Below are positions 31,168-64,000 of a stretch of DNA of 64,000 nt, piece by piece. The notes under the pieces were generated by a model. That model worked only from the letters and a program-made list of their open reading frames with translations, was not told the origin of the DNA and made no database searches. Within the stretch, counting starts at the first letter, position 1, and the number at the start of each line of letters is the position of its first letter. Source of the stretch: Rhizocola hellebori (GTDB lineage: Bacteria; Actinomycetota; Actinomycetes; Mycobacteriales; Micromonosporaceae); NCBI RefSeq assembly GCF_016862955.1, contig NZ_BONY01000052.1, forward strand, positions 1 to 64,000. The letters run 5' to 3'. Made by a program: the position numbers and the translations under genes.

Positions 31168-31857
31168 TCAGCGGGCGGTGACAAAGACCCGCGACGCGAC
31201 CTCACGGGGCAGCCTGATCTGATCGCTGCCCTGGTCGATGCGGACGCCGTCTCGCTCCTGAGCCACCGTGACCGTCGTGCCCGGATCGATGCCTGCCGCG
31301 TGCAGCTGGCGCAGCACCTCGGCATCGGTCTGCACGCTTTCGCAGATGCGGCGCACCACGACCGGGCCGGTCAGGCCGGGGAAGGCGAGGTTTCGCTCGG
31401 TGGGGCCAAGGGCCGGCGCGTCTTTGGCGGCGGTGTCGAGGGCGTCGAGACCGGGAATCGGATTGCCATAAGGGGAACGGGTCGGGCGGTTGAGCATCTC
31501 GTAGACCCGCTTTTCCACCGCGTCGCTCATCACATGCTCCCAGCGGCAGGCCTCATCGTGCGCCTCCTCATAGGGCATGCCGATCACGTTGACCAGCAAG
31601 AGCTCGGCGAGCCGGTGCTTGCGCATCACCGCCACGGCGTGGGCACGGCCGTTTTCGGTGAGGGCGAGATGCCGGTCGGTCTCGACCACCTGTACCAGGC
31701 CATCACGCTCCATGCGGGCCACGGTTTGGCTGACGGTCGGACCACTCTGGTGCAGCCGCTCCGCGATGCGCGCCCGCAGCGGTGGCACGCCTTCCTCCTC
31801 GAGCTCAAGGATGGTGCGCAGGTACATCTCGGTGGTGTCGATGAGATCGTGTGACAT
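31168..31857 (-). CDS. DtxR/IdeR-family metal-dependent repressor
   Basis: The 229-residue repressor has the DtxR winged helix, the dimer and metal-binding domain and a C-terminal SH3-like domain. Metal ligands align with those of DtxR at Met11, His81, Glu85, His100, Cys104, Glu107 and His108 (motif HDEACRWEHVMSD). The Cys at position 104 favours iron over manganese. It would repress iron uptake in Fe(II). The start at 31857 follows GGAGGG. I did not see a clear iron box in this window. Confidence 0.93.
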   Translation of the reverse strand: MSHDLIDTTEMYLRTILELEEEGVPPLRARIAERLHQSGPTVSQTVARMERDGLVQVVETDRHLALTENGRAHAVAVMRKHRLAELLLVNVIGMPYEEAHDEACRWEHVMSDAVEKRVYEMLNRPTRSPYGNPIPGLDALDTAAKDAPALGPTERNLAFPGLTGPVVVRRICESVQTDAEVLRQLHAAGIDPGTTVTVAQERDGVRIDQGSDQIRLPREVASRVFVTAR

Positions 31858-31934
31858 GTGCGGCGGTCCCTCCAAGCGGCTTGCGCAATTCTATTGGGTC
31901 CGTGTGACAGGGGTGGTTATCGAGGCCAGCGATG

Positions 31935-53281: not shown

Positions 53282-54919
53282 GTGCCGCGTGTCGTCATTT
53301 GGACCTTTCACCTCGCACTGCCCATGGCGGGGCTGTGGTTGCTGCTCGCCCAACCGGCCGCCGACCTGACCTGGCACGACTCGGAGAGCCACTTCTGGCT
53401 GGTCCTGGTGGTGGCAGTGATCAACGTCGCGCTCGGGGTGCGGATGAGCTCCGCCGCGAGCGCGCGTTCGGACGCCCGCCTCTTCCTGGTCTCGCTGGCG
53501 TTCCTGTCCAGCGCGGGCTTCTTCGCGCTGCATGCCCTGGCCACGCCGGGTGTGCTGCTGCATCACGCCAATGCCGGCTTCGATGTCTCCCAGCCGATAG
53601 GCCTTGCCGTGGCCGCGATCTTTGCGGTCGCGTCGTCGCTTCAGCTCGACGACCGGCGGGCGGCGGCGGTGCTGCGTGCGCAGCCGCTGCTGCAGATCGG
53701 GCTGGCCACCCTGATCGTTTTCTGGGCGGTGATTTCCCTTCTCGACCTGCCGCCGCTCAACGCCACCCCGGGCACCCGCGAGGTGGAGGGGCCGTTGATC
53801 GTGATCGCCTTCCTCACGGTGGCGCTCTACATCTTCGCGGCATTCCGTTACTACCTGTTGCACAGGCGCACACCGGCGGCAATGTTGATCAGTGTGGTCA
53901 CCGCGTTCGTGCTGCTGGCCGAGGCCATGGTCACGGTGACCCTCGCGCACAAATGGCAGCTGTCGTGGTGGGGATGGCATGTCCTGCTCGCCTTCGCCTT
54001 CGGCTTCGTGGCCTACAGCGCGTATGTCCAATACGGACGGGAGGGAACGAGCGCCGGTCTGTTCGACGCGATCACCCTCGACCGCACGGCAAAGGCCATC
54101 CGAGCCGAATACGGTGCGGCCCTTGAGGAATTGGTCACCGAGCTGGAGGAGCGGGAGCGATCGGGCGGCCCTGCCCCGCACGTGGCGGGTCGGCTGGCGG
54201 AACGGTTCGGGCTCAGCGAGGGGCAGACCGCGGTGCTCGACCGGGCCGCCGCCGCGCTTTCCGCTGAGCGAGAGGTCAGCCGCAAGCTCAACACCCTGTT
54301 CCGGCACTATCTTTCGCCCGACGTGGCGGCCGCGCTGATCGCCGACCCGGATCAGGCTGCGCTCGGCGGGTCGGTGGTGGAGGTGACCGCACTCTTCGCC
54401 GATCTGCGTGGCTTCACGACCTTCTCCGAAGGGGTGGAGCCGGCCGAGATCGTGGCCATGCTCAACCGGTACCACGGAGTGGCCGTTCCCTCCATTTTGG
54501 ACAATGGCGGCACCATCGTGCAGTTCGTGGGCGACGCGTTGCTGGCCCTGTTCAATGCGCCCGCCCGGCAGCCGGATCACGCCTTGCGCGCGATCCGCGC
54601 GGCCATGCAGATGCAGGTGGCGGTGGAAGCCATCGCCGAAGAGCGCCCGGACTGGCCCCGCTTCCGGGTCGGCGCCAACACCGGCCCCGCGTTGGTGGGA
54701 AACATTGGCAGCGAAGCATTACGGGGCTTCAACGCGATGGGCGATGCCGTCAACGTGGCCGCCCGGCTGCAGACGCTCGCCCAGCCCGGCCAGGTCATCA
54801 TCGGCCAGCACACGATGCTGGCCGCCGGCGACCGCGTCAAGAGCGAACCCCTGGGCGACCTGGAGGTCAAAGGCCGGGTGCAGACCGTCAGCGCCTATCT
54901 GGTGACCGGCCTGACATGA
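53282..54919 (+). CDS. Membrane class III adenylate cyclase
   Basis: The 545-residue protein has six to seven N-terminal membrane helices, a coiled connector and a C-terminal class III catalytic domain from about residue 350. Metal-binding Asp residues are in LFADLRGFT and FVGDALLALF, and the transition-state motif is NVAARL. The stretch GNIGSEALRGFNAMGDAVN is typical of adenylate cyclases. It makes cAMP at the inner membrane face. It is coupled by ATGA to a CRP-type regulator gene, suggesting local signalling. Confidence 0.93.
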   Translation: MPRVVIWTFHLALPMAGLWLLLAQPAADLTWHDSESHFWLVLVVAVINVALGVRMSSAASARSDARLFLVSLAFLSSAGFFALHALATPGVLLHHANAGFDVSQPIGLAVAAIFAVASSLQLDDRRAAAVLRAQPLLQIGLATLIVFWAVISLLDLPPLNATPGTREVEGPLIVIAFLTVALYIFAAFRYYLLHRRTPAAMLISVVTAFVLLAEAMVTVTLAHKWQLSWWGWHVLLAFAFGFVAYSAYVQYGREGTSAGLFDAITLDRTAKAIRAEYGAALEELVTELEERERSGGPAPHVAGRLAERFGLSEGQTAVLDRAAAALSAEREVSRKLNTLFRHYLSPDVAAALIADPDQAALGGSVVEVTALFADLRGFTTFSEGVEPAEIVAMLNRYHGVAVPSILDNGGTIVQFVGDALLALFNAPARQPDHALRAIRAAMQMQVAVEAIAEERPDWPRFRVGANTGPALVGNIGSEALRGFNAMGDAVNVAARLQTLAQPGQVIIGQHTMLAAGDRVKSEPLGDLEVKGRVQTVSAYLVTGLT

Positions 54920-55578
54920 CAGGAGAGTTCTGGGCGCTGCTTACGCCCGCTGAGCGGGAGGACTTCACCCGGCACAGCGTGGTCAAGCAATGGCGGCGCG
55001 GAGACGTGCTCTTCCGAGAGGGGGCCGATTCCGACTGGGTGGTCGTGGTGCAGACCGGCCGGGTCAAGGCGTCCTGCCACACCGCTGGCGGGTCGGAGGT
55101 CGTCCTCGCCGTAAGAGGCCCGGGTGCCCTGCTGGGTGAGCTTTCCGCGGTCGACAGGGAACCCCGCTCAGCCACCATCCAGGCCGTGGAGCCGTTGACC
55201 GCGCTGGTGATGCCGCTGCCCGAGTTCGAGGCCTACCTGTCCGCCCACGGCCGGGTCGCCTACCTGCTGATGCGCATGCTCGCGCAGCGGCTGCGCGACG
55301 CCGACCGCAAACGCATCGAGTTCGGTGCGCAGGACAGCACGGGCCGGGTGGCGGCCAGGCTGGTCGAGCTGGCCGAGCGGTTCGGCACCAAGCACGGCAA
55401 CGGCGAGATCAAGATCGCGCTGCCGCTCTCCCAGGACGAGCTGGCGGGCTGGGTCGGCTCGTCACGCGAGGCCGTGAGCAAGGCGCTTGGCGTGTTGCGT
55501 TCGGCGGGCTGGATCCGTACCAGCCGGATGTCGGTGGTCGTCCTCGACCTGGAGGCGCTGCGCCGCCGCGCGGCCTGA
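54916..55578 (+). CDS. Crp/Fnr-family transcription factor coupled to cyclase
   Basis: The 220-residue regulator has a cyclic-nucleotide-binding domain with the phosphate-binding cassette GELSAVDREPRSAT and a winged helix (LSQDELAGWVGSSREAVSKALG). No cysteine cluster typical of FNR is present. It is translated from the cyclase stop (ATGA), so it is the obvious effector of the cyclase. Its target sites are not known. The divergent Rieske/DUF6529 operon is a candidate. Confidence 0.92.
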   Translation: MTGEFWALLTPAEREDFTRHSVVKQWRRGDVLFREGADSDWVVVVQTGRVKASCHTAGGSEVVLAVRGPGALLGELSAVDREPRSATIQAVEPLTALVMPLPEFEAYLSAHGRVAYLLMRMLAQRLRDADRKRIEFGAQDSTGRVAARLVELAERFGTKHGNGEIKIALPLSQDELAGWVGSSREAVSKALGVLRSAGWIRTSRMSVVVLDLEALRRRAA

Positions 55579-57355: not shown

Positions 57356-58282
57356 TCAGGGTACGAGGACAATTTTGCCGATTGTGCGACCGGTTTCGCC
57401 ATACGCGTGAGCCGCCGCGGCGTCTTGCAGGGGGAAGGTCTTCGCCACGTGGACCCGCAACCGGCCCTGATCGGCGAGCAGAGCGAGCGCTTCCAGCCCC
57501 GCATGATCGGGCTCGGCCAGAAAATCCAGCGCCCTGACGCCGCGCTCAGCGGCGTTCGCGGCCACCTCGGGCGGCGTGTCGCTGGTCATGGCCACGAGCA
57601 GCCCGCCCGGGCGCACCGTCGCCAAGGCCGCGCCCGCCTGCGGCCCGATCAGGCCGATCGCGACGTCGATGCCGGTCACCGAGGTCGCGATGTCCATCGA
57701 GGTGTAGTCGATGACCTCGTCCGCCCCCAGCCCGAGCACGAACTCGTGCTTGGCCGGGCTCGCGGTCGCCACGACGTGGGCGCCCAGCGCCTTGGCCAAC
57801 TGAACCGCGAGATGGCCGACCCCGCCGGCCGCGGCCGGGACCAGCACCCGTTGCCCCGGCTGCAGGTTGGCCGTGTCCACGAGCACCTGGCGCGCCGTGA
57901 GACCGGCCAGCGGCAGGCCCGCCGCCTCCACATGCGACAGCGTGGCCGGTTTGCGGGCCAAGTGGCGGCTGGGCGCGGTGATGTACTCGGCATAGGCCGC
58001 GGCTTGAGCGGGAAAACGGGGCATCCCAAAGACTTCGTCGCCGACCGCGAACCGGGTCACGCCCCGCCCGATCTTCTCGACCGTGCCGCTCACATCCCAC
58101 CCGACCGTGAACGGGGGCCGGCCGAGAAACCCACCCGAGCGGCGCACCTTCCAGTCCACCGGATTGACCCCGGCGGCGTGCACTCTCACCAGCACCTCGG
58201 TGGGGCCGGGCTCGGGCCGGTCGGCCTCGATCATCCGCAGCACCTCAGGCCCACCCAGGGACTCCTGACGGATCATCCTCAC
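57356..58282 (-). CDS. Zinc-independent NADPH:quinone reductase-like enzyme (MDR family)
   Basis: The 308-residue medium-chain dehydrogenase has the QOR start IRQESLGGPEVLR, substrate domain GVNPVDWKVRRSG and cofactor motif AAAGGVGHLAVQLAKALGA, without zinc-binding cysteines. It probably reduces quinones or enones with NADPH. GTG at 58282, GTG at 58291 and ATG at 58276 are all possible starts. It is divergent from the phosphotransferase gene. Confidence 0.9.
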   Translation of the reverse strand: MRMIRQESLGGPEVLRMIEADRPEPGPTEVLVRVHAAGVNPVDWKVRRSGGFLGRPPFTVGWDVSGTVEKIGRGVTRFAVGDEVFGMPRFPAQAAAYAEYITAPSRHLARKPATLSHVEAAGLPLAGLTARQVLVDTANLQPGQRVLVPAAAGGVGHLAVQLAKALGAHVVATASPAKHEFVLGLGADEVIDYTSMDIATSVTGIDVAIGLIGPQAGAALATVRPGGLLVAMTSDTPPEVAANAAERGVRALDFLAEPDHAGLEALALLADQGRLRVHVAKTFPLQDAAAAHAYGETGRTIGKIVLVP

Positions 58283-58306
58283 CCGGTTCACCCTACCGGG
58301 GGCACA

Positions 58307-59203
58307 ATGAGCGGCATGCTTCCTCCCATCGCCCCGGCCTTCGACCTCGAGACCCTGGTGCAGGCGGCCACCGCCGAGGGCAGCGGGCTGTGGGACCTGT
58401 CCCGGGCCACGCTGCACGCCGACGGCTGGGAAAACGCCGTCCTGGAGACAGGTGACGGCTGGATCCTGCGCTTCCCGCGCGACGAGGAGCTCGACTTCGA
58501 CCAGGAGATCGCCATCCTGCAGCACCTGCAGGGGCGCCTGCTGGTGCGCACCCCGAGCGTCGAATGGATCGGGCAGAAGACCCGCTTCGCGGCCTATCGC
58601 AAGCTCACCGGCGCGGCCTTCGACCGGGAGCGCTACGCGTCGGCGAGCGAATTCCAGCGCGAAGCCCTGGCCAGCTCGCTCGCGAGGTTCCTGGCCGCGA
58701 TGCACGACAGCATGGACGAGGTGGAGGAGACCGAGCTGGAGGTCCCGTTCCTCGACCACGAGCCCACGCTCGAGCTGGTGGTCAAGGAGATGCGCTGGCT
58801 GCCCGCGTCGCACTGGAGACACGCCGAGAACCTCATCGGCCAGTTCGCCACGATGTGGGTGGGCGATAACGTTCCCGGCCCAGAGGTGTTGCTGCACAAC
58901 GATTTCCACACTGGCAACATGGTCTTCGCCGAGCCGGTGGGCGACCTGACCGGCATCTGGGACTTCTCCAACGTCCAGATTGGAGTGCCCACCTTCGACT
59001 TCCGGTACTTCGACGGCGCGCCGCGCGATCTGCTGGAACGCATGGCGGGGCACTACCAGATGCTGACCCAGCGCCCGATCGACGTGCGGGCGGCCGTCGT
59101 AGCCAACCGCATGGAGAACCTCTTCGACGTGCTGCAGACCCGCCGCATGGATCTTTTTGACACCGTGACCGCCCGGTGGGCAGCAGCCGACGCCGGGCTG
59201 TAG
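58307..59203 (+). CDS. Aminoglycoside phosphotransferase-like (APH/ChoK) kinase
   Basis: The 298-residue kinase has the Brenner loop HNDFHTGNMV and the metal-binding WDFSNVQIG. The N-lobe (DGWENAVLETGDGWILRFPR) binds ATP. Such proteins phosphorylate antibiotics or metabolites such as macrolides or choline. The natural substrate is unknown. The ATG at 58307 follows a G-rich stretch. Confidence 0.88.
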   Translation: MSGMLPPIAPAFDLETLVQAATAEGSGLWDLSRATLHADGWENAVLETGDGWILRFPRDEELDFDQEIAILQHLQGRLLVRTPSVEWIGQKTRFAAYRKLTGAAFDRERYASASEFQREALASSLARFLAAMHDSMDEVEETELEVPFLDHEPTLELVVKEMRWLPASHWRHAENLIGQFATMWVGDNVPGPEVLLHNDFHTGNMVFAEPVGDLTGIWDFSNVQIGVPTFDFRYFDGAPRDLLERMAGHYQMLTQRPIDVRAAVVANRMENLFDVLQTRRMDLFDTVTARWAAADAGL

Positions 59204-59225
59204 TGCGGCGTTCTATTGTGAGGCT

Positions 59226-60044
59226 GTGCCCAGACCACTGATCGATGCCGCCTCGCTGGCCGCGAAGCTCTCCGCGGAGAACCCGCCGACCGTTCTTGAC
59301 GTGCGCTGGAAGCTCGGGGCGCCGTCCGCCTACCCCGACTACCTGGCCGGGCACGTGCCCGGGGCCGCCTTTGTCGATCTGGAGCAGGAGCTGTGTGGGC
59401 CGGCCGGCGCCGGTGGGCGCCACCCGCTGCCCGATCCGGAGCAGCTCCAGGTGGCGCTGCGCGCGGCCGGTGTGAGCAGCGACCGCGAAGTGGTCGTCTA
59501 CGACCACGGTGACGGCATGGCCGCGGCCAGGGCCTGGTGGACCCTTCGTTGGGCCGGTCATCATCTGGTACGGGTGCTCGACGGCGGATATCCGGCCTGG
59601 GTGGCCGCGGCGGGGCCGATAAGCGTAGAGCCGTCGGCGGTGACGCCGGGCGAATTCAAGGTCGAGCCCGGCGCGATGCCGGTGCTCGACGCGGAAGAGG
59701 CCGCCCGGGTGGCCCGGGAAGGGGCGCTGCTGGACGCACGCGCACCGGAACGCTTCCGCGGCGAAACCGAGCCGATCGATCCCGTGGCCGGCCACATTCC
59801 GGGCGCGATGAACATGCCCTACGCCAAACTGGTCAACGCCGACGGCACCATGCGCGACGACCTCATCTCGATCCTGCCCGCGGCCGTTCAGGTCGGGGCC
59901 TACTGCGGGTCGGGGATCACCGCCGCCCACACCGTTCTGGCGCTGTTCCAGGCGGGCCGGGACGACGCGGCGCTCTACGTCGGCTCGTGGAGCCACTGGA
60001 TCACCGACGAGGACCGTCCAATCGCGACAGGCGACGGCGAATGA
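59226..60044 (+). CDS. Rhodanese-fold sulfurtransferase (mercaptopyruvate type)
   Basis: The 272-residue two-domain rhodanese has an inactive N-terminal domain and active-site Cys227 in AYCGSGITAAH. The CGSG(I/V)T loop favours 3-mercaptopyruvate over thiosulfate as donor. GTG start at 59226. Its TGA overlaps the acuC start as ATGA, so a sulfurtransferase is made with the acetylation enzymes. Confidence 0.93.
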   Translation: MPRPLIDAASLAAKLSAENPPTVLDVRWKLGAPSAYPDYLAGHVPGAAFVDLEQELCGPAGAGGRHPLPDPEQLQVALRAAGVSSDREVVVYDHGDGMAAARAWWTLRWAGHHLVRVLDGGYPAWVAAAGPISVEPSAVTPGEFKVEPGAMPVLDAEEAARVAREGALLDARAPERFRGETEPIDPVAGHIPGAMNMPYAKLVNADGTMRDDLISILPAAVQVGAYCGSGITAAHTVLALFQAGRDDAALYVGSWSHWITDEDRPIATGDGE

Positions 60045-61216
60045 AGTCGCTTGTGCTGTGGAGCGAAAAGCTCCTCGAATACGACCTGGGCAACCATCCG
60101 CTCGACCCGGTGCGGGTGGAGCTGACCATCGCGCTGGCCCGCGACCTCGGCCTTCTCGACCGGCCCGGCGTGACCGTACGTGAGCCGGTCGCGGCCACCG
60201 ATGAGGAGCTGTTGCGGGTGCACCGAGCCGACTACCTGCATGCGGTGCGAGTGGCGCCCGACGACCCGTTCTTCCGCGGGTACGGGCTGAACACCCCGGA
60301 CAATCCGGTTTTCGACCACATGCACGAAGCCTCCGCCCTCGTCGCGGGGGCGAGTCTGGCCGCGGCCCGGGCGGTGTACAGCGGCGAGGTGACCCGGGCG
60401 GTGAACGTCTCCGGCGGGCTGCATCACGCCATGCCCGCGCGGGCATCGGGCTTCTGCGTCTACAACGACCCGGCCATCGCCATCGCCGATCTGCTTGCGG
60501 CTGGCGCGCAACGGATCGCCTACGTCGATATCGATGTGCATCACGGGGACGGGGTGCAGGAGATCTTCGCCGATGACCCGCGGGTGCTGACCGTGAGCCT
60601 GCACGAGAGCCCGATGACCCTGTTCCCGGGGACGGGTTTCCCGACCGAGGTGGGTGGGCCCGCCGCGCTTGGCACTGCGGTGAACGTCGCGCTCCCACCT
60701 GGGACCCGGGACAGGGGATGGCTTCGGGCTTTTCATGCGGTGGTGCCGAGCGTGCTTCGTGCGTTCCGGCCGCAACTGGTGGTGCTGCAAGCGGGCGCCG
60801 ACTCGCACCAGCTCGATCCGCTCGCCAACCTGCAGCTCAGCGTGGACGGGCAGCGGGCGGCCGCGATCGCCGTGCGCGACCTGGCCGACGAGTTGTGCGG
60901 CGGGAAGGTGATCGCGACCGGTGGTGGCGGCTACGCGCTGATGCAGGTGGTGCCGCGCACCTGGTCGCATCTGATCGCGACGATGACCGGTGATCCGCTC
61001 GACCCGGCCACGCTCACCCCGCCCTCGTGGCGTGCCTTGGCGCGCAAGCGTTTTCCCGATCAGGATCCACCGCAGCGGATGACCGACGACGCCGACGTCG
61101 GGTTCGAGCCCTGGCAGCCGGGGGTGGGGCAGGATCCGCTCGACCGGACCATCCTCGCCACGCGTCAGGCGATTTTCCCCTACTACGGGCTCGACCCGAT
61201 GGATGCGCGAGACTGA
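60041..61216 (+). CDS. acuC: AcuC-type class I protein deacetylase
   Basis: The 391-residue zinc-dependent HDAC-like enzyme has GGLHHAMPARASGFCVYND, the zinc motif DIDVHHGDGVQ, a later Asp (AGADSHQLDPL) and GGGGY. AcuC removes acetyl groups from acyl-CoA synthetases and relieves their inhibition. It overlaps the rhodanese stop by four bases and is followed after one nucleotide by the acetyltransferase gene. Confidence 0.94.
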   Translation: MKSLVLWSEKLLEYDLGNHPLDPVRVELTIALARDLGLLDRPGVTVREPVAATDEELLRVHRADYLHAVRVAPDDPFFRGYGLNTPDNPVFDHMHEASALVAGASLAAARAVYSGEVTRAVNVSGGLHHAMPARASGFCVYNDPAIAIADLLAAGAQRIAYVDIDVHHGDGVQEIFADDPRVLTVSLHESPMTLFPGTGFPTEVGGPAALGTAVNVALPPGTRDRGWLRAFHAVVPSVLRAFRPQLVVLQAGADSHQLDPLANLQLSVDGQRAAAIAVRDLADELCGGKVIATGGGGYALMQVVPRTWSHLIATMTGDPLDPATLTPPSWRALARKRFPDQDPPQRMTDDADVGFEPWQPGVGQDPLDRTILATRQAIFPYYGLDPMDARD

Positions 61217-61217
61217 C

Positions 61218-63641
61218 ATGCGTCCCCGGGCGGCAGATGTCCTGCTGGCGGATGGCACCACCGTCCACTTGCGACCGATCGACGCGACCGACGCCGATGC
61301 GGTGGTCGCCATGCACGGCCGCTTCTCCGAGCAGACCCGCTATTTCCGCTATTTCTCGCCCTATCCACGGATCCCGGCGCGAGATCTGGACCGTTTCGTC
61401 AACGTGGACCACGTCGACCGCGAGGCGCTGGTCATTGCGGCAGGCCCGGATCTGATCGGGGTGGGTCGCTACGAACGGCTCGGCCCGGACGCGCCCGACG
61501 CCGAGGTGGCGTTCGTGGTGGAGGACGCCTATCAGGGCCGCGGCGTGGGTTCGGTGTTGCTGGAACACCTGGCGGCCGCCGCACGCGAGGTGGGCATCGA
61601 AAGGTTCGTCGCCGAGGTGCTTCCCGCCAACGGCGCCATGTTGCGCGTGTTCACCGACGCGGGCTATGAGGTGAGCCGTCAATACGCAGACGGCGTGGTG
61701 CATCTGACCTTCCCGGTCGCCCAGACGCAGCGATCGCTTGCCGTGCAATGGGATCGCGAGCACCGCACGGAGGCGCGCTCGGTCGCCCGGCTGATGCGCC
61801 CGGAAGGCGTGGCAGTCTATGGCGCAAGCTCCTCCGGGCGCGGGGTGGGCGCGGCCGCCCTTGCCCACCTGCGTGCGGGCGGCTTCACCGGGCCCATCCA
61901 CGCCGGCCGCCACCTGACCGAACAAGCCGACCTGGCCGTGGTCGCGGTGCCGCCGGAAGCCATCGGCGAGGTCGTCGCCGACGCGGCCGCGGCGGGAGTG
62001 CACGGCCTGCTGGTGATCACCGAGCTGGATCCTTCGCAGCGCCGCGACCTGGTCGAGGCCACCCGAGCCGCCGGGATGCGGCTGGTCGGGCCGGGCAGCC
62101 TGGGCCTGGCCGACCACACCGTGCACCTGAACGCGACCCTGGTGCCCAGACTGCCCGCCCCGGGCCGGGTGGCGCTGTTCAGCCAGTCCGGAACATTGGG
62201 CCTGCACCTGATGGCCGAAGCGGACCGCAGGGGCCTTGGCATGTCCAGCTTTGCCAGCGTGGGCAGGCGCGCCGACGTGTCCGGCAACGACCTGCTCCAG
62301 TTCTGGGCCGACGACCCGCAGACCGACATCATCGCCATGTACCTGGAAAGCTTTGGCAATCCGCGAAAGTTCGCCCGGATCGCGCGCACGGTCGGCCGTC
62401 GCAAGCCCATCATCGTGCTCGCATCGGAGACCGGCGCCGGGGGAAGCTCCACTTTGGACTCCGCGGCGCTGGAGGCGTTGCGCGCTCACTCCGGTGTCAT
62501 TGAGGTGGGTACAGTGTCGGAGCTGCTGGACGTGGCCAGCGTGCTGGACAGTCAGCCGCTGCCCGTCGGCGACCGGATAGCGGTGGTGAGCAACGCTTTC
62601 GCCATGACCGCCCTCGCCGCGGCGCGGGTCCGCTCGGCCGGGCTGCAGGTGGGCCGCAGCGGCTCGGTCAGCACCTCCGCACCGCCCGCGGAGCTTGCCG
62701 CCGCGGTTCGCTCCGCCGTGGAAAGCGACGACGCCGACGCGGTTGTGGTGGTGGTGACCCCGCCCCTGCCCACCGGCCCGCTGAGCGCCTCGGAGACCGA
62801 GCTGCTGCTGCCCTACATGCAGGTGCTGGCGGAGGTGGTGCAGGCGGCCGACAAGCCGGTGGTGGTGACCAGCCTGCCGGGCGAGGCGGGCCCGGCCGGA
62901 GTCCCGTCCTTCCGTTCCATCGAGGAGGCGGTGCGCGCCCTGGCCCACGCTGTCCGGCGGGCAGCTTGGCTGCGCGAGCCGCCGGGCACCCTGCCCACAC
63001 CGTTGCGGCCCACGGTTTCGAGCATCGCCGAGGCACTTGAGGCCTACGACATCCCCGTGCTCACCTCATATCTGGCCGATTCCGTGGACGCCGCGCAGGC
63101 CCGCGCCGAGGAGGCTGGATATCCGGTGGCGCTCAAGGCGGCCGAGCATCCGCAACGGATCGACCTCGGCGCGGTGCGGCTCAACCTGGGCTCGGCCCCG
63201 CTGGTGCGCGGCGCCTACACCGACCTCGCCGCCGCGTTCGGCCCGACCGTGGTCGTGCAGAAGATGGCCCCACCCGGCGTCGCCTGTGTCATCGAGGTCC
63301 GAGACGATCCCGCTTTCGGCCCGGTGGTCGGTTTCGGCCTGGGCGGCCCCATTCCCGAACTGGTAGGCGACCGCGCCTGGCGCGCAGCCCCGCTAACCGA
63401 TCGCGACGCACAAGCCCTGCTGCGCACACCCAAAGCCGCCCCACTACTGGCCGGTGTAGATCTGGCCGCCCTCGCCGAACTCCTCGTCCGGATAGGACAG
63501 CTGGCCGATGAGGTCCCAGGCTTGCGCAACATCGTCCTCAACCCCGTGCTAGCACACGAAAAAGGCTGGACCGCCCTGCACGCCGCCGGCGTCCTCGACA
63601 CCCCCGCCGACCGCCCTGACTCCGGCCCCCGCCGCCTCTAA
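61218..63641 (+). CDS. GNAT-acyl-CoA synthetase (ADP-forming) fusion protein acetyltransferase, Pat-like
   Basis: The 807-residue protein has an N-terminal GNAT domain (VVEDAYQGRGVGSVLLEHL, about residues 1-165) followed by an acyl-CoA synthetase-like region and a C-terminal ATP-grasp (AYDIPVLTSYLADSVDAA). GNAT first and synthetase second is the reverse of enterobacterial Pat. Pat enzymes acetylate and inactivate acyl-CoA synthetases. It is adjacent to AcuC, its likely opponent. The GNAT core is complete. The CoA-binding part of the synthetase domain looks eroded. The ATG at 61218 is preferred over one 15 nt upstream, but the ribosome binding site is weak. Confidence 0.91.
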   Translation: MRPRAADVLLADGTTVHLRPIDATDADAVVAMHGRFSEQTRYFRYFSPYPRIPARDLDRFVNVDHVDREALVIAAGPDLIGVGRYERLGPDAPDAEVAFVVEDAYQGRGVGSVLLEHLAAAAREVGIERFVAEVLPANGAMLRVFTDAGYEVSRQYADGVVHLTFPVAQTQRSLAVQWDREHRTEARSVARLMRPEGVAVYGASSSGRGVGAAALAHLRAGGFTGPIHAGRHLTEQADLAVVAVPPEAIGEVVADAAAAGVHGLLVITELDPSQRRDLVEATRAAGMRLVGPGSLGLADHTVHLNATLVPRLPAPGRVALFSQSGTLGLHLMAEADRRGLGMSSFASVGRRADVSGNDLLQFWADDPQTDIIAMYLESFGNPRKFARIARTVGRRKPIIVLASETGAGGSSTLDSAALEALRAHSGVIEVGTVSELLDVASVLDSQPLPVGDRIAVVSNAFAMTALAAARVRSAGLQVGRSGSVSTSAPPAELAAAVRSAVESDDADAVVVVVTPPLPTGPLSASETELLLPYMQVLAEVVQAADKPVVVTSLPGEAGPAGVPSFRSIEEAVRALAHAVRRAAWLREPPGTLPTPLRPTVSSIAEALEAYDIPVLTSYLADSVDAAQARAEEAGYPVALKAAEHPQRIDLGAVRLNLGSAPLVRGAYTDLAAAFGPTVVVQKMAPPGVACVIEVRDDPAFGPVVGFGLGGPIPELVGDRAWRAAPLTDRDAQALLRTPKAAPLLAGVDLAALAELLVRIGQLADEVPGLRNIVLNPVLAHEKGWTALHAAGVLDTPADRPDSGPRRL

Positions 63642-63654
63642 CCCCACCCACTGA

Positions 63655-63713
63655 CACCCAAAGACGCACCTTGACCATGAAGTTGCGTCTATGGGTGCAG
63701 AGCAAAGGTGTGG
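63655..63713. repeat. Palindromic intergenic repeat, copy 2
   Basis: Arms CACCCAAAGACGCA (63655-63668) and TGCGTCTATGGGTG (63684-63697) pair with one mismatch, followed by CAGAGCAAAGGTGTGG. The right half matches copy 1 (127-150). It lies just downstream of the acetyltransferase stop. Confidence 0.75.
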
Positions 63714-63801
63714 CGCAGACACTGTCCTGCCAGGCGGGGAACACTGCCGCGGGGGAGGTTGTCGCCGGCGGAGCCGGCGGGGGTGGGGAGCACGCAGGTG
63801 G

Positions 63802-63855
63802 CGTTGCCGCCGGGAGATACGGCGAAAGACCACAACGAACCGGCGTAAAGGCATA
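63802..63855. repeat. Dispersed hairpin repeat, copy 2
   Basis: It aligns to 14885-14940 at about 45 of 56 positions with two single-base gaps. The hairpin is shorter here and the CCGGCG-AAA tail is kept. It lies in the 321-bp gene-free region 63642-63962, which also holds a 7-bp GC hairpin at 63763-63779. Confidence 0.75.
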
Positions 63856-63911
63856 AAGGAAGGCGGGGCAGCGAACCGAGACGGTGGGCTGGGGTGAGCG
63901 GGCAGAGTAAG

Positions 63912-63941
63912 AGGGCGCGGCCCGGGAGTGGGTCGCGCCCT
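63912..63941. terminator. GC-rich terminator hairpin
   Basis: AGGGCGCG (63912-63919) pairs with CGCGCCCT (63934-63941) just beyond the stop codon of the minus-strand gene at the window end. Without a T run its efficiency is uncertain. Confidence 0.6.
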
Positions 63942-63962
63942 GTGAAGGCTGGGGAGAAAGGG

Positions 63963-64000
63963 TTAGCTGGCGTAGACGGAGAGGCGGGTGCCGCGGTCGC
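63963..64000 (-). CDS. 3' end of a minus-strand gene (partial)
   Basis: The last 11 codons before TAA (63965-63963) read DRGTRLSVYAS in the frame that ends at the window edge. This is too short to identify. A hairpin follows, supporting a real gene end. Confidence 0.45.
   Translation of the reverse strand, partial: DRGTRLSVYAS

Follow-up and report, generated by a model that had tools for sequence, protein, structure and literature searches.

A rhodanese–AcuC–Pat gene trio in Rhizocola hellebori and the genomic contexts of type II Pat acetyltransferases in actinobacteria

The sequence analyzed here, referred to as the window, comprises the first 64,000 nucleotides (nt) of contig NZ_BONY01000052.1 from Rhizocola hellebori (Micromonosporaceae; assembly GCF_016862955.1). 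Near its end, at positions 59226–63641 of the plus strand, the window carries three complete open reading frames (ORFs), read directly from the sequence, that encode a rhodanese, an AcuC-type deacetylase, and a fusion of a GNAT acetyltransferase with an NDP-forming acyl-CoA synthetase-like region, hereafter Pat. The three genes are tightly packed: rhodanese and AcuC overlap by 4 nt within an ATGA, in which the AcuC ATG lies on the rhodanese stop codon, and AcuC is separated from Pat by 1 nt. Families were assigned from Pfam profile matches and motifs were read from the translations. A preliminary description of this DNA had recognized three coupled genes of these identities, which the ORF coordinates, the Pfam families, and the spacing of −4 and +1 nt all bear out.

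The arrangement recurs within the family, as emerges from the neighborhood survey that the same description had proposed. A search of 81 Micromonosporaceae genomes (E-value cut-offs 1e-60 for Pat, 1e-40 for rhodanese) detected Pat in 66 and rhodanese in 77, with 64 genomes holding the two. In 42 of these 64, the rhodanese precedes Pat on its strand at a gap of 1177–1811 nt, an arrangement that is missing from the other 22. Each of the 46 distinct loci read, chosen for a close rhodanese and Pat (49 rows before removal of three duplicates), has AcuC between the two. Named carriers of the trio belong to Catelliglobosispora, Catellatospora, and Micromonospora; among named loci, the window Pat is closest (65–70% identity) to those of Catelliglobosispora and Catellatospora, both Micromonosporaceae.

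By its motifs, the lead gene appears to encode a 3-mercaptopyruvate-type sulfurtransferase. Its active-site loop reads CGSGIT with Cys227 (codon 59904–59906), and a DARAPERFRGE motif is present; a CGSG[VI]T loop marks 3-mercaptopyruvate sulfurtransferases, which CRKGVT does not. The protein shares this loop, this motif, and two rhodanese domains with SseA/MST, and its closest solved relatives are named sulfurtransferase and 3-mercaptopyruvate sulfurtransferase. It differs from SseA/MST in scoring below the NCBIfam equivalog cut-off (NF008557; 5e-42 and 143.9 bits against a cut-off of 250 bits) and in belonging to a Pat-linked ortholog group, described below. The second gene retains the complete set of AcuC motifs, GGLHHAM, DIDVHHGDG, QAGADSH, and GGGGYAL, which we take to serve zinc-binding and charge-relay roles, and its PF00850 match is above the cut-off. 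With an HDAC fold and these motifs, the product is classed as a putative deacetylase, for which deacetylation of acetyl-CoA synthetase is predicted.

The GNAT half of Pat matches the solved GNAT domain of Streptomyces lividans PAT (4nxy/4u5y) at 5.9e-47 and is 50% identical to it across 165 columns; the title of 4u5y describes this domain in complex with the C-terminal domain of Acs. Glu96 falls in the same alignment column as the DAEF Glu of Escherichia coli PatZ (9it0), and this catalytic Glu is accompanied by the R/Q-x-x-G-x-G/A loop of GNAT enzymes, here QGRGVG. Behind the GNAT domain, Pfam places CoA-binding, flavodoxin-like, and ATP-grasp domains, so that an N-terminal GNAT and a C-terminal NDP-forming synthetase-like region lie in one chain, as in type II GNATs. 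An AlphaFold model of Pat built from 9 sequences reaches a mean pLDDT of 73.9 and a pTM of 0.63, with pLDDT below 50 at residues 404–414, and its nearest folds (Foldseek) are E. coli PatZ, with 9it0 as the best match, DddX, and ADP-forming synthetases. Type II GNATs, exemplified by SlPatA of S. lividans, are defined by GNAT-first order and by a synthetase domain that is inactive for lack of the catalytic histidine, and the role of this half is described as incompletely understood (passages of PMC8556138). The reversed domain order and eroded synthetase half to which the preliminary description drew attention are therefore both accurate, as domain order and alignment confirm, but they are not peculiar to this locus, being part of the published class definition and already known for the class.

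Beyond this definition, the synthetase half of the window Pat is, by alignment, eroded further than its class. Active NDP-forming acyl-CoA synthetases use phosphorylatable alpha and beta histidines. We aligned 72 Pats, comprising 71 loci and the window; L048, which has the same strain and gene order as L049, and the repeats L059, L061, L064, and L070 were left out. At the alpha phospho-histidine site, 4 sequences have SHT and 40 have GHx, while the other 28 are without the histidine. All 9 Micromonosporaceae rows, the window included, have a shortened alpha loop with no histidine at this site (25–30 residues, 27 in the window, versus 35 in most GHx rows), and a GHTG stands nearer the strand in four Catellatospora rows (L045, L046, L047, L049). 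A first pattern scoring had accordingly counted these four as GH, from AGHTG, and the window as H, from an RAH outside the loop; in the scoring used for the loop counts all Micromonosporaceae rows are taken as lost after visual inspection of the alignment. At the beta position, which reads HK or HR in other rows, the window has Gln and L045 and L046 have Asn, while L044, L047, L049, and the Micromonospora rows have His; a deletion of 2 residues at this position is common to the window, Catelliglobosispora, and Catellatospora rows. The window Pat consequently has a histidine at neither relay position. A second GNAT–synthetase fusion encoded in the same genome, L068 (G000:C41:51433-53985), keeps both SHT and HK and may be an active synthetase or another type of Pat.

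These features bear on whether the synthetase half could still make acyl-CoA while the GNAT part regulates, an arrangement that we consider very improbable. Pfam recognizes all of the synthetase domains, the model resembles ADP-forming synthetases, the paralog L068 retains its relay motifs, and among the relatives GHTG persists in the four Catellatospora rows and the beta His in two of them (L047/L049) and in Catelliglobosispora L044, all of which would fit such a bifunctional enzyme; the missing relay histidines of the window Pat and the loop shortening shared by 9/9 Micromonosporaceae rows argue against it. Instead, the synthetase-like half, without the histidines of the phosphohistidine relay, would most likely act as an acyl-CoA (ligand) sensor.

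Table 1. Positions of the trio and its sequence features in the window
Feature	Position	Strand	Details	Basis
-10-like hexamer TATTGT	59214..59219	+	6 nt 5' of rhodanese GTG; candidate promoter, leaderless operon transcript	sequence
Two-domain rhodanese, 3-mercaptopyruvate sulfurtransferase type (putative)	59226..60044	+	272 aa, GTG start	PF00581, two stretches, 3.5e-28
AcuC-type zinc deacetylase (putative), HDAC fold	60041..61216	+	391 aa	PF00850 4.4e-85, catalytic motifs
GNAT–NDP-forming synthetase fusion, type II Pat	61218..63641	+	807 aa	PF13302/PF00583 + PF13380 + PF13607 + PF13549
GNAT domain of Pat	61233..61715	+	residues 6-166; Glu96, acetyl-CoA loop QGRGVG (106-111)	4nxy/4u5y match
Shortened alpha phospho-histidine loop of Pat	62424..62480	+	residues 403-421; histidine gone	Pat alignment
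ATP-grasp segment EHPQRIDLGAVRL of Pat	63144..63182	+	residues 643-655; 2-residue deletion, Gln at beta position	Pat alignment

A wider survey of 158 genomes of the class (cut-offs 1e-60 for Pat, 1e-40 for AcuC, and 1e-30 for rhodanese) detects Pat in 105, AcuC in 127, and rhodanese in 101. ORF picking in the neighborhood maps was crude, with some long spurious frames, and identities were taken from tblastn, Pfam, and genome searches; gaps in this survey start from the end of the Pat match, often near residue 594, so that true gaps are shorter. AcuC occurs in 103 of the 105 genomes with Pat versus 24 of the 53 without it; among the 105, it immediately precedes Pat on the same strand in 21 and follows it in another 2. 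In the AcuC tree, free-standing AcuCs group together apart from the linked ones (19/20 rows, support 94/90), the exception being the free-standing L164, which falls with the linked L018. Three genomes, G086, G108, and G012, each carry one linked and one free-standing AcuC, the linked copy of G012 lying downstream of Pat.

Rhodanese is likewise associated with Pat, in two distinct positions. In 24 of the 80 genomes that have both, it shares the strand of Pat at a distance of up to 11 kb, against a rough chance expectation of about 0.15. In 2 of these, both from the family of the window, it is placed upstream through AcuC, whereas in 22 genomes of five other families it lies 2.7–10.6 kb downstream of Pat on the same strand, at the end of a row that runs, with variations, Pat–DUF5998–phosphodiesterase–thymidine kinase–rhodanese (assigned by Pfam in L057 and by clustering elsewhere). 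A small, midpoint-rooted rhodanese tree of 35 sequences separates 9 trio members, 11 Pat-downstream rhodaneses, and 4 others from 11 unlinked ones by a branch with support 100/99, and this split places the lead gene in a Pat-associated ortholog group. An approximately unbiased (AU) test for trio versus Pat-downstream rhodaneses gave p 0.261; the tested grouping is compatible with the best tree, and the result is not used as evidence.

Together, these data point to a reversible lysine-acylation switch formed by Pat and AcuC, which we regard as probable, with activity and substrate assigned from the protein families. Specifically, the GNAT domain of Pat would turn off AMP-forming acyl-CoA synthetases by acetylating their catalytic lysine, and AcuC would strip the acetyl group, undoing the action of Pat. 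A candidate substrate, an Acs with PKTRSGK, is encoded in the genome on another contig. The rhodanese would most likely tie the breakdown of cysteine and 3-mercaptopyruvate, to pyruvate and persulfide, to acetyl-CoA control through co-expression; this functional coupling to the switch is proposed tentatively and is itself somewhat doubtful. Cysteine-regulated ACT-GNAT Pats are reported, in sections of PMC6434083, from Micromonosporaceae among others, a parallel that is suggestive only here. Several observations weigh against the proposed reading. Most of the remaining Pat genomes have AcuC away from Pat, and since AcuC is mostly present there without being adjacent, adjacency is not needed for function. 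The 24 of 80 genomes with rhodanese near Pat are a minority, some of the others being broken contigs, and AcuC–Pat occurs without rhodanese in families f18 and f2. Rhodanese is also found near DUF5998 in 3 genomes without Pat, and 4 of the rhodaneses that the tree groups with the Pat-linked ones are without demonstrated linkage. In the Rhizocola genome itself, one sirtuin and the second Pat-like fusion, L068, could do the same work.

For the lead gene only, and compatibly with the switch, the linkage may reflect genomic convenience: the rhodanese would be a housekeeping gene held in an old neighborhood, either the DUF5998 row or the interval between IdeR-type and sigma-70 genes (see below), and unrelated to acetylation. 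This explanation has close to an even chance of being correct. Unrelated genes such as thymidine kinase stand between Pat and rhodanese in the Streptomyces-type row, the DUF5998-linked rhodaneses without Pat fit as well, and in 56 of the 80 genomes with both genes no linkage is found within 15 kb on one contig. It accounts less readily for the retention of the same ortholog group near Pat in two arrangements, upstream of AcuC and downstream of Pat, or for the translational coupling by a 4-nt overlap, which is seen in the window and in many relatives.

The DUF5998 protein (PF19461) reveals a second context of type II Pat. Present in 95 of the 158 class genomes, it follows Pat on the same strand at no more than 4.5 kb in 75 of the 83 genomes with the two genes; measured from where the Pat match ends, the distance is 70–3438 nt (median 853), and example loci are L057:3349-3921 and L053:6451-7062. 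DUF5998 is missing from 20 of the 21 genomes with AcuC upstream of Pat versus 2 of the 84 other Pat genomes (Fisher 3e-18, a value that ignores relatedness). None of the 81 Micromonosporaceae genomes contains a match; the control genomes of that search gave none either, and the same search matched the 95 class genomes. The alpha loop follows the same division. Its histidine is lost in 26 of 28 AcuC-upstream Pat rows, or 22 of 28 when the four Catellatospora rows are credited with their GHTG, and GHx is kept in 38 of 40 SlPatA-type rows without upstream AcuC. On these grounds, DUF5998 is a strong candidate partner of type II Pat.

This distribution would be explained if AcuC–Pat were exchanged for Pat–DUF5998, with DUF5998 working through the Pat loop histidine and the AcuC-joined lineages having dropped both. 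Such an exchange is possible, though we lean toward doubting it. The co-occurrence counts above fit it, but the Pat tree requires only 2 changes for AcuC linkage, 2 for DUF5998, and 4 for the loop, and paired sign tests are powerless at this number (p = 1). There are also exceptions: the loop is kept in G009 and G086 and DUF5998 in G108, while the histidine is gone from G029, which has DUF5998, and from G006, where no AcuC neighbor is demonstrated, the contig ending there. The two-context pattern thus rests on few evolutionary events, and function is inferred from it; the weakly resolved backbone of the Pat tree also makes a single origin of AcuC–Pat possible. A more far-reaching proposal, which we consider unlikely as a whole, holds that actinobacterial type II Pats are of two exclusive kinds. 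One would work with a DUF5998 protein acting via the GHx loop, for example by reading or setting its ligand or phosphorylation state, and the other would be joined in an operon with AcuC, without DUF5998 and the loop histidine; the operon AcuC would form a lineage separate from most free-standing AcuCs, and in Micromonosporaceae the sulfurtransferase would tie acetyl-CoA control to cysteine-derived sulfur. Natural lineages that have lost both the loop histidine and DUF5998 offer a way to test what the synthetase-like half of Pat does.

Among characterized systems, the window Pat shares with SlPatA a GNAT domain first, an NDP-forming synthetase-like half second, and about 50% identity in the GNAT half; the GNAT of the L053 Pat is nearly identical to that of solved SlPAT, on which ground its family, f19, is taken to be Streptomyces. 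The window Pat differs in being coupled to AcuC, in having no DUF5998 neighbor, in its shorter chain (most others having 870–930 aa), and in its shortened loop, whereas the Streptomyces-type rows L053 and L091 have GHx. Salmonella Pat and E. coli PatZ, which are type I GNATs, contain the same domains in the opposite order with the same overall fold (9it0), and are not known to have an AcuC partner in their operon. The pairing of an acetyltransferase with AcuC resembles Bacillus subtilis acuABC, in which the two are encoded together and act oppositely on acetyl-CoA synthetase (parts of PMC8556138), and by analogy opposite action would be expected for the window. The B. subtilis system differs in that AcuA is a small stand-alone GNAT, AcuB is present, and acsA adjoins, while the window genome carries acs on another contig. 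In Saccharopolyspora spinosa, acuC is reported to affect growth and spinosad, and a Pat neighbor is not named in the parts of that study considered here (PMC8296664).

Within the open PubMed Central literature, no description was found of AcuC with a sulfurtransferase and an acetyltransferase in actinobacteria or of a rhodanese–AcuC operon, and nothing on 3-mercaptopyruvate sulfurtransferase together with protein acetylation in Streptomyces; the papers that came up for rhodanese with AcuC concern, by title, cassava feeding or endonuclease G. DUF5998 is mentioned once, in one paper, and its gene order nowhere. The trio consists of known families in a conserved arrangement that is without description in that literature, and the DUF5998 lead is new. 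Two leads for the protein-acetylation field follow: a deacetylase that shares its transcription unit with a type II Pat in a large actinobacterial family, and DUF5998, a conserved neighbor of SlPatA-type enzymes.

The start regions of the trio were compared across relatives. Starts could be set in 39 of 46 rhodanese, 45 AcuC, and 46 Pat upstream regions, leaving 38, 42, and 40 after near-copies were dropped. The 38 rhodanese regions show a start-anchored information peak at −20 to −6, in which the commonest element, GTTGACT, stops 6–7 nt short of the start codon; its counterpart in the window is TATTGT at 59214–59219. Only 14 of the 38 have a strict xAxxxT hexamer 5–9 nt from the start, and none has a Shine-Dalgarno match of 5 of 6. 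This pattern suggests a leaderless transcript. A -10-like hexamer at the same distance precedes AcuC in 19 of 42 regions and Pat in 2 of 40, the AcuC cases lying mostly at loci with a longer rhodanese–AcuC gap. The preliminary description had held that independent promoters for each gene, together with the lack of a shared acetylation substrate, would speak against its acetylation operon. The window has a promoter-like element before rhodanese and none before AcuC, but the AcuC hexamers of the relatives indicate that co-transcription is not strict across the family. An own start-anchored GTGCGACGATGG-like element precedes AcuC at L050, L051, L064, L119, L127, and other loci with the longer gap. 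A sigma-70 scan of 57800–64000 returned no full promoter, and terminator-like sites in the same interval are at chance level (2 versus 1.9 expected).

Immediately upstream, an APH-family phosphotransferase gene (58301–59203, plus strand) ends 22 nt before rhodanese, and read-through from it into the trio may occur; a tblastn search of eight relative loci did not find this gene. A divergent DtxR/IdeR-type regulator lies 127–598 nt upstream of rhodanese in 7 of 8 relatives and 4 kb off in Catelliglobosispora. Control of the trio by IdeR found no support: within about 270 nt upstream of rhodanese in the window and 8 relatives, the best IdeR-box matches have 6–11 mismatches of 19. The window regulator of this type is located at 31168–31875 on the minus strand, 27 kb from rhodanese, with transporter, oxidoreductase, cyclase/CRP, and APH-like genes between; this distance and the intervening genes indicate that a segment was inserted or rearranged in the window. 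The cyclase/CRP pair, at 53282–55578 on the plus strand, comprises genes for an adenylate/guanylate cyclase-domain protein and, overlapping its end by 4 nt, a CRP-family regulator. On the other side of the trio, a sigma-70 gene lies downstream of Pat on the opposite strand, separated from it by at most two genes; it was assigned by Pfam in the window genome and by clustering elsewhere. In the window genome this gene (regions 3 and 4; L067:13964-14428) lies just past the window end, and its blastp cluster is represented in 11 of 24 regions from several families.

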